Of a stretch of 64,000 nt of DNA, positions 24,051 to 63,050 are shown piece by piece (position 1 is the first letter of the stretch; every line of letters starts with the position of its first letter). The translations under genes and the position numbers were made by a program. The stretch is from Tolypothrix sp. PCC 7712 (GTDB lineage: Bacteria > Cyanobacteriota > Cyanobacteriia > Cyanobacteriales > Nostocaceae). The stretch spans positions 2,790,001 through 2,854,000 of the forward strand of contig NZ_CP063785.1 in the NCBI RefSeq assembly GCF_025860405.1, written 5' to 3'. The notes below the pieces were generated by a model. That model saw nothing but the letters and a program-made list of their open reading frames with translations. It did not search any database and was not told where the DNA came from.

Positions 24051-24080
24051 AACCGCAGAGGCGCAGAGAACACAGAGGGA
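24051..24080. repeat. Left inverted copy of the CCGCAGAGGCGCAGAG repeat
   Basis: It starts AACCGCAGAGGCGCAGAG and continues AACACAGAGGGA. It is the near-perfect inverse of 24468-24501; the two bracket the GxxExxY gene. A naive long reading frame would translate it as RRGAENTEG at the protein's N-terminus. Related pieces lie at 59688 and 63034. Confidence 0.8.
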
Positions 24081-24098
24081 AGAGAGTTAGGGAAAAGG

Positions 24099-24467
24099 AT
24101 GAATTGGCTGACTGGTGAAGTAATTGGGGCGGCGATTGAGGTACATCGAGTATTGGGGCCAGGGTTTTTAGAGGAGGTGTATCAGGAAGCATTGATGGTA
24201 GAATTTTTGAGCCGTGGGATACCTCATGAATGCGAGAAGTGGGTAACAGTCAATTACAAAGGATATGAAGTTGGTAAAGGAAGATTGGATTTTTTGGTTG
24301 CTAACTGTCTAATTTTGGAATTGAAAGCTGTACAGAATCTAGCCCCAATCCATGAAGCACAAGTACTCTCATACCTGAAGATTACTAACTATCCCCTCGC
24401 TCTCCTAATAAACTTTAACGTTCCTCTCCTTACAAAAGGCATCAAACGCATTATCCTATCTTCTTAA
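24099..24467 (+). CDS. GxxExxY family protein (PD-(D/E)XK nuclease-like)
   Basis: About 122 residues from ATG 24099 (MNWLTGEVIGAAIEVH), preceded by GGAAAAGG. The family signature GPGFLEEVYQ (with GxxExxY) is present. The likely nuclease-fold residues follow as GRLDFLV and LILELKAV, the D-(E)xK pattern, then LPL-type strands to the end. The domain resembles PD-(D/E)XK nucleases but no activity has been assigned. An upstream in-frame TTG at 24039 only adds translated repeat sequence, so I reject it. The gene is bracketed by inverted repeat copies and fills the gap between divergent valS and the transporter gene. Confidence 0.85.
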   Translation: MNWLTGEVIGAAIEVHRVLGPGFLEEVYQEALMVEFLSRGIPHECEKWVTVNYKGYEVGKGRLDFLVANCLILELKAVQNLAPIHEAQVLSYLKITNYPLALLINFNVPLLTKGIKRIILSS

Positions 24468-24501
24468 CTCCTCTCTGTGTCCTCCGCGTCTCTGCGGTTC
24501 G
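24468..24501. repeat. Right inverted copy of the CCGCAGAGGCGCAGAG repeat
   Basis: It begins at the first base after the GxxExxY stop: CTCCTCTCTGTGTCC, then CGCGTCTCTGCGGTTCG. The reverse complement matches 24051-24080 with about five differences in 29 bases. It ends nine bases before the transporter ATG, so that gene's leader is largely repeat. Confidence 0.8.
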
Positions 24502-59686: not shown

Positions 59687-59708
59687 CGCTGCGCCTCTGC
59701 GGTTCGAT
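59687..59708. repeat. Copy of the CCGCAGAGGCGCAG repeat
   Basis: CTGCGCCTCTGCGGTTCG is the inverse of the left arm at 24051-24080. It lies between the acetyltransferase start and putA. A further truncated piece (AAACCGCAGAGG) is at 63032. Confidence 0.65.
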
Positions 59709-62870: not shown

Positions 62871-63050
62871 AAGGCTTGCATTTACAAGCCTCTGTATTCT
62901 ATTTTGACTCCTCAATTTTGCTGTCACCATATTTCCCAAGTGCAAAATTCATTTCCAGTTTCGGAAATCAAATCTACCTACGAAATACAATTTGTAGTGG
63001 AACAGGATTTACACAGAGGTTACAGAAAATCAAACCGCAGAGGAATGAAT

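Follow-up and report, generated by a model that had tools for sequence, protein, structure and literature searches.

The 450-bp stretch at the centre of this analysis lies in a 64,000-nucleotide window (the whole piece of Tolypothrix sp. PCC 7712 DNA that was analysed) and is probably, at roughly 0.68 by our estimate, a single-gene mobile, or once mobile, cassette whose nuclease recognises its own arms; how the arms are bound, cut and copied is inferred. The most likely account is that this GxxExxY nuclease recognises the repeats flanking its gene and travels together with them, making up a very small selfish element; binding and movement are both inferences. The pairing of the nuclease with its arms is real, general and specific, and mechanism beyond recognition is inferred. 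We observed matched arms, private unit types, a decoupling of type from host phylogeny, an association between a protein residue and a repeat base, and copies that end at the arms. Each arm comprises about three units of the formula R-C-n1-n2-A-n3, and the relevant features of the window are as follows.

24051..24082, plus strand: upstream arm, three units with cores CAGAG at 24056, 24064 and 24073 (from sequence and alignment)
24099..24467, plus strand: GxxExxY gene for a predicted PD-(D/E)XK nuclease, 122 aa from ATG 24099 (TIGR04256 and PF13366 matches)
24111..24116, plus strand: codons of profile positions 2 and 3 (T5 and G6), which open helix 1 and are the inferred determinants of specificity (from covariation with n2)
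24468..24499, minus strand: downstream arm, inverted cores CAGAG (24490-24494), CGGAG (24482-24486) and CAGAG (24473-24477) (from sequence and alignment)
59687..59708, minus strand: isolated copy of the outer portion of the arm (minus-strand sequence CGAACCGCAGAGGCGCAGCG; from pattern searches and sequence)
63033..63043, plus strand: short partial copy AACCGCAGAGG, weak (from sequence)

The window arms (24051-24082 and 24468-24499) are inverted relative to each other and align without gaps at 27/32 identical positions, with 5 mismatches. The original prediction had placed the start of the downstream arm at the first base past the stop codon, which the ungapped alignment bears out. ATG 24099 is the likely start codon of the nuclease; the frame is open from TTG 24039, and from there it crosses the upstream arm, which orthologues also carry. 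Taken alone, the arm pair is moderately unusual, since 4 of 1963 placements drawn at random from the window match its score, and the evidence becomes decisive only at the family level. Within the whole 10.1-Mb genome, CCGCAGAGGCGCAG with at most one mismatch has 26 copies (reversed control, 0). Two further copies of the repeat had been pointed out in the window: the one at 59687-59708 is a genuine solo made of one full and one degenerate unit, and the one at 63034 is repeat-like over only about ten bases. Solo arms in this genome retain the outer GAACCGC edge seen in cassettes.

We collected 80 related loci, then paralogues together with Firmicutes and Planctomycetota loci, and scored arms by local alignment of the upstream flank against the inverted downstream flank in 210 full-length GxxExxY loci drawn from Cyanobacteria, Planctomycetota and Firmicutes. 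The median own-arm score was 26, compared with 10 for shuffled flanks (99th percentile 16.5) and 10 for flanks from different loci; other places in the same loci had a 99th percentile of 14. Inverted arms exceeded the 99% shuffle level in 169/210 loci, and scores above 16.5 were obtained in 70/75 and 24/32 loci of two mainly cyanobacterial sets, in 11/21 of the Firmicutes set and in 64/82 from Planctomycetota. The analysis confirms the inverted arm pair proposed for this gene and shows it to be much more widespread than the window could reveal. The proposal would have been refuted had such repeats been as common beside unrelated genes; in a control test in Planctomycetota, arms were present at 38/44 GxxExxY loci and at 0/30 ParE toxin genes, so the claim survives. 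GxxExxY proteins were found in 170 of the 392 Planctomycetota genomes searched and occur throughout Nostocales. They are encoded on 8 of 72,556 plasmids; a search for phage carriage gave no phage match, and one GxxExxY query had no match among viral contigs. On a Sphingomonas parapaucimobilis plasmid (L294), the gene sits between fabD and fabG in a fatty-acid operon, with a clear arm upstream only.

Successive cores within the arms are spaced by 8 bases (219 cases), 9 (325) or 10 (86). The dispersed repeat had been described as one sequence, and in this respect the original prediction does not hold: there are many types (CAGAG, CAGAT, CAAAG, CCAAG, CGAAG, CGGAG, CGGAT, CGAAT and others outside the formula), and they are matched inside each cassette. 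The five-base core was the same in both independently called arms in 140/149 cases (shuffled partners, mean 31.7 and maximum 45); the core caller has a background, firing in 6/60 control flanks and 7/165 random places. One genome may hold many cassettes, nearly all of private type, and across multi-cassette genomes the own partner was the unique best match for 74/78 upstream arms, where 24.6 were expected. The Planctomycetota genome G479 illustrates this: nine cassettes were read, eight with detectable arms, and each upstream arm matched best with its own partner. The matched arms, with the residue-base association described below, explain a class of dispersed CAGAG/CAGAT/CAAAG-type repeats; we found no bacterial description of the unit repeat letters in the open-access literature. 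A Firmicutes genome with six GxxExxY genes (G248) includes two (L148, L233) with long unit repeats (GACCCAGCATGTAGC) that differ from the usual five-base cores.

The window protein is a member of the GxxExxY family, with profile scores above the curated cut-offs for both TIGR04256 (E 4.8e-41, 139.8 bits; cut-off 35) and PF13366 (E 6.7e-40, 136.5 bits; cut-off 22). These were the only matching protein families, and no HUH tyrosine transposase was among the matches. In an alignment of 68 sequences, residues G22, E25, Y28, D64, E74 and K76 never vary, and Q88 and Y92 hardly do. They supply the D, E-x-K and Q-x3-Y motif set typical of the RecB/Cas4/lambda-exonuclease clade. An AlphaFold2 model built from the 68 sequences (mean pLDDT 96.9) has Cas4 SSO0001 as its best structural match (4ic1_G, VIA Z 10.2, rmsd 3.5 over 100 residues); in Foldseek, lambda-exonuclease relatives rank next and I-Bth0305I is among the weaker fold matches. 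The PD-(D/E)XK-like D...ExK pattern noticed at the outset has thus stood up in D64, E74 and K76, and as far as sequence and a predicted model can tell, the protein meets the definition of the PD-(D/E)XK superfamily, this motif on the expected fold. T5 falls early in the first helix (residues 2-19). A PADLOC search of the window protein returned no known anti-phage defence family at E <= 0.01. In the open-access literature, the papers found mention GxxExxY only in passing and give no function for it; the matched arms and the residue-base association make its role cheaply testable.

This association links n2 with the residue at profile position 2, which is T5 in the protein of the window. It was first spotted by eye in the first data set, and in a scan of all columns position 2 reached z 11.7, with a runner-up at 5.1. 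In a held-out set of previously unused Planctomycetota genomes plus a few plasmid loci, T predicted n2=G in 50/50 loci and A predicted A in 3/3 (Fisher p 2e-11), and S went with either base (12 A, 5 G). Restricting the test to the downstream arm, which lies about 350 bp from the codon, and to representatives under 70% identity left the association in place (T/G 63/64, A/A 11/11, p 3e-12), so physical linkage to the upstream arm is no explanation. Whether T or A occupies this site, close to where helix 1 begins, predicts a single base of the unit. Position 3 contributes as well, since the residue following S sorts n2: S then N/K goes with A (10/10), and S then G/E/S with G (10/11). The specificity of a 122-residue nuclease may be readable from two residues. 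By eye, Bacteroides and Bernardetia (T, CAGAG) and Sphingomonas (A, CGAAG) agree.

The tree implies 28 changes of the base n2. Taking the best ML tree gives 23 independent pairs, about 15 in the expected direction, 0 opposite and 8 without change. Well-supported branches alone leave only 5 independent pairs (about 3 in the same direction, 0 opposite, 2 unchanged), which means that control for phylogeny depends on the best ML tree and on comparing matched close pairs. Disjoint pairs of close sequences (mean identity 0.62) have different residues at position 2 in 95% of cases when n2 differs (n=43) and in 19% when n2 is shared (n=64). We looked for a determinant of n1 and found none. A seemingly near-perfect link between position 111 and n3 was not counted as evidence: n3 has just two changes on the tree, and the pattern reflects a single subfamily split.

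At the valS site, whose cassette is widespread in Nostocales, 58 cyanobacterial loci with cassettes of four types were compared. The nuclease tree requires 12 changes of arm type, where shuffled labels require 28 on average and never fewer than 21; the tree of the adjacent valS protein requires 27 (shuffled mean 28.1; 368/1000 shuffles as low). Arm type here tracks the nuclease rather than the host, and the two counts indicate that the gene and both arms are exchanged or altered together. The predicted partnership between protein and repeat is upheld both by this result and by the residue that predicts a repeat base in held-out loci. The nuclease reading frame is interrupted in the closest valS-site orthologues (L009, L010), which points to ongoing decay.

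Genomes contain up to 15 GxxExxY matches, some truncated and some with internal stops. Two cassettes in one genome (L280 and L298, G756) share 94.7% identity that spans the two arms and what lies between and goes no further, and two in different genomes (L315 and L372) are 92.8% identical, with the likeness likewise ending at the arms. Both pairs meet the insertion-sequence criterion that a copy ends at terminal inverted repeats within unrelated flanks; near-identical cassettes in unrelated flanks occur in G756 and between G777 and G793. That gene and flanks behave as one cassette, as was inferred from the window, is borne out by the arm-to-arm likeness of copies within one genome. The G756 cassette flanks are themselves repeats, and those of L280 and L298 contain other multi-copy sequences that recur in varied combinations, giving the look of a mosaic of repeats.

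Triple CACAGAG arrays were present in 17/43 Planctomycetota genomes with a GxxExxY gene and in 3/56 without (p 3e-5). Several are facing pairs 40-200 bp apart, with no room for a gene, and some genomes with solo arms lack a detected GxxExxY gene of matching type. Two Planctomycetota genomes (G415, G443) have 30-60 such arrays and a single detected GxxExxY gene each, which in G443 has a different arm type; this suggests that the arrays are orphan repeats. Comparison of valS-transporter gaps, proposed as a way to find the insertion ends, revealed decayed and truncated cassettes among 30 Nostocaceae loci and no clean empty site. The thiC-acsF site has full, truncated and gene-deleted forms alongside unrelated gaps. 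Because neither a clean empty site nor a target duplication was found at the valS-MFS, thiC-acsF or G756 loci, the route of movement remains open.

In our proposal, the cassette's only gene encodes a small RecB/Cas4/lambda-exonuclease-like nuclease, and its ends are the two inverted arms, each of about three units at 8-10 bp spacing. The nuclease would recognise its own arm units, in which n2 would be read by the residues that open helix 1 (here T5-G6), and would probably cut at or near the arms. Repair after the cut could then copy the cassette elsewhere or replace a resident cassette. Since recognition must match, unit type and protein would change together, and each cassette in a genome would keep its type to itself. 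Facing arms without a gene, like solo arms, would be non-autonomous or decayed derivatives. Direct binding, cutting and the copying route in this proposal are inferred.

The main reason for caution comes from four-helix-bundle genes (TIGR02436; L238-L267), which in Planctomycetota have inverted iterated arms, built of tandem 7-10 bp units in other alphabets (for example TTCTGGG, TAGTGG, TTCGGTG), at 19/24 loci against 0/30 for the ParE control, and which tend to be present in the genomes that have GxxExxY genes (odds ratio 8, p 2.7e-6). Because these genes lack nuclease motifs and have similar arms, arm formation may not need the GxxExxY nuclease; either they make up a second class of element, or the making of arms relies on something shared. 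The shared layout and co-occurrence lend some support to a generic repeat-flanked element moved by another enzyme (from the host, RNA-based or acting in trans), with GxxExxY as a passenger or accessory that binds the arms and does not move them. We consider this unlikely, given that arm type tracks the GxxExxY protein, that one residue predicts a base, and that the catalytic residues, needless in a mere binder, are invariant. Homing-like gene conversion is a variant of the main reading that is possible, if doubtful: the nuclease would cut other cassettes or solo arms, repair would use the cassette, and spread would occur mainly between existing arm sites rather than by transposition into new ones. 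Cassette type in the valS gap does switch often, regardless of host phylogeny, while the flanks stay, and the GAACCGC edge is common to solo arms and cassettes. The near-identical cassettes in unrelated flanks (G756; G777 versus G793) are harder to accommodate in this way, although those of G756 lie among repeats.

Arms serving as operators or as a structural feature for autoregulation of the resident gene, without mobility, would be in keeping with their fixed short distances around the gene and with how widespread the valS-site cassette is, but not with truncated copies in multi-copy genomes, copies that end at the arms or gene-less paired arms, and this strikes us as very improbable. Scarcely credible is the idea that the arms are kept for transcript pairing, as an RNA hairpin or terminator. 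The arms are inverted, and paired ends are described for the 23S rRNA intervening sequence that carries an S23 ORF (PMC4990558), but arm mismatches that G-U pairing would tolerate number 344 against 352 of the A-C kind (p 0.79). With no wobble bias and no Rfam match, RNA pairing of the arms was rejected. Returning to the cassette whose nuclease recognises its own arms, we suggest only tentatively, at slightly less than even odds, that GxxExxY cassettes form a new class of minimal, single-gene mobile element, in which a PD-(D/E)XK nuclease reads iterated inverted arms through a short amino-acid-to-base code that has diversified into many private types per genome, with four-helix-bundle cassettes as a parallel class that shares this end architecture.

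Several known systems share parts of this organisation. Within the Cas4/lambda exonuclease/RecB clade, the fold match and the D, E-x-K and Q-x3-Y motif are common ground, whereas the GxxExxY nuclease is minimal (122 aa) and stands alone between arms. PD-(D/E)XK homing endonucleases, among them I-Bth0305I and I-Ssp6803I, belong to the same superfamily and are comparable as selfish, sequence-specific enzymes only by analogy; the GxxExxY gene is not in an intron and has iterated arms on both sides. With MITEs and insertion sequences bearing terminal inverted repeats, the cassette shares copies that end at inverted repeats and gene-less derivatives, but it has no known transposase domain and no detected target duplication. 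The 23S rRNA intervening sequences carry a small S23/four-helix-bundle ORF bounded by inverted repeats (PMC4990558). They too place a small ORF between inverted repeats, and TIGR02436 genes share the iterated-arm layout; the GxxExxY protein is different and is located outside rRNA.

REPtrons and TIRtrons, in which RAYT or TIRYT genes are associated with REP or TIR repeats (PMC3733652), share with the GxxExxY cassette a single gene between inverted repeats, repeat-specific partners and dispersed gene-less copies. They use an HUH tyrosine transposase in place of a PD-(D/E)XK nuclease. GxxExxY arms differ from their repeats in being built by iteration of 8-10 bp units, in having many interchangeable types and in showing a residue-base association. 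Of the REPtron criteria, framing repeats that are also dispersed in the genome are met, and an HUH tyrosine transposase of IS200/IS605 type is not. The analogy to RAYT and REP sequences drawn in the original prediction therefore applies to the layout (a gene framed by repeats, with gene-less derivatives) and fails for the enzyme: the GxxExxY cassette works like a REPtron/TIRtron-type cassette from which the RAYT-defining HUH transposase is absent.

The window's genome holds a second GxxExxY cassette (L089, C1:6789092-6789439) with different, mixed arms (AAACGCAAAG..GCGCAAAGG..ACGCGGAG), and its site is likewise occupied in related cyanobacteria (L092, L094, L095). Elsewhere in this genome (L004, 1490-1560), two back-to-back arms have their outer ends facing across an A/T run, an arrangement that resembles the junction of two cassettes or an excision product.
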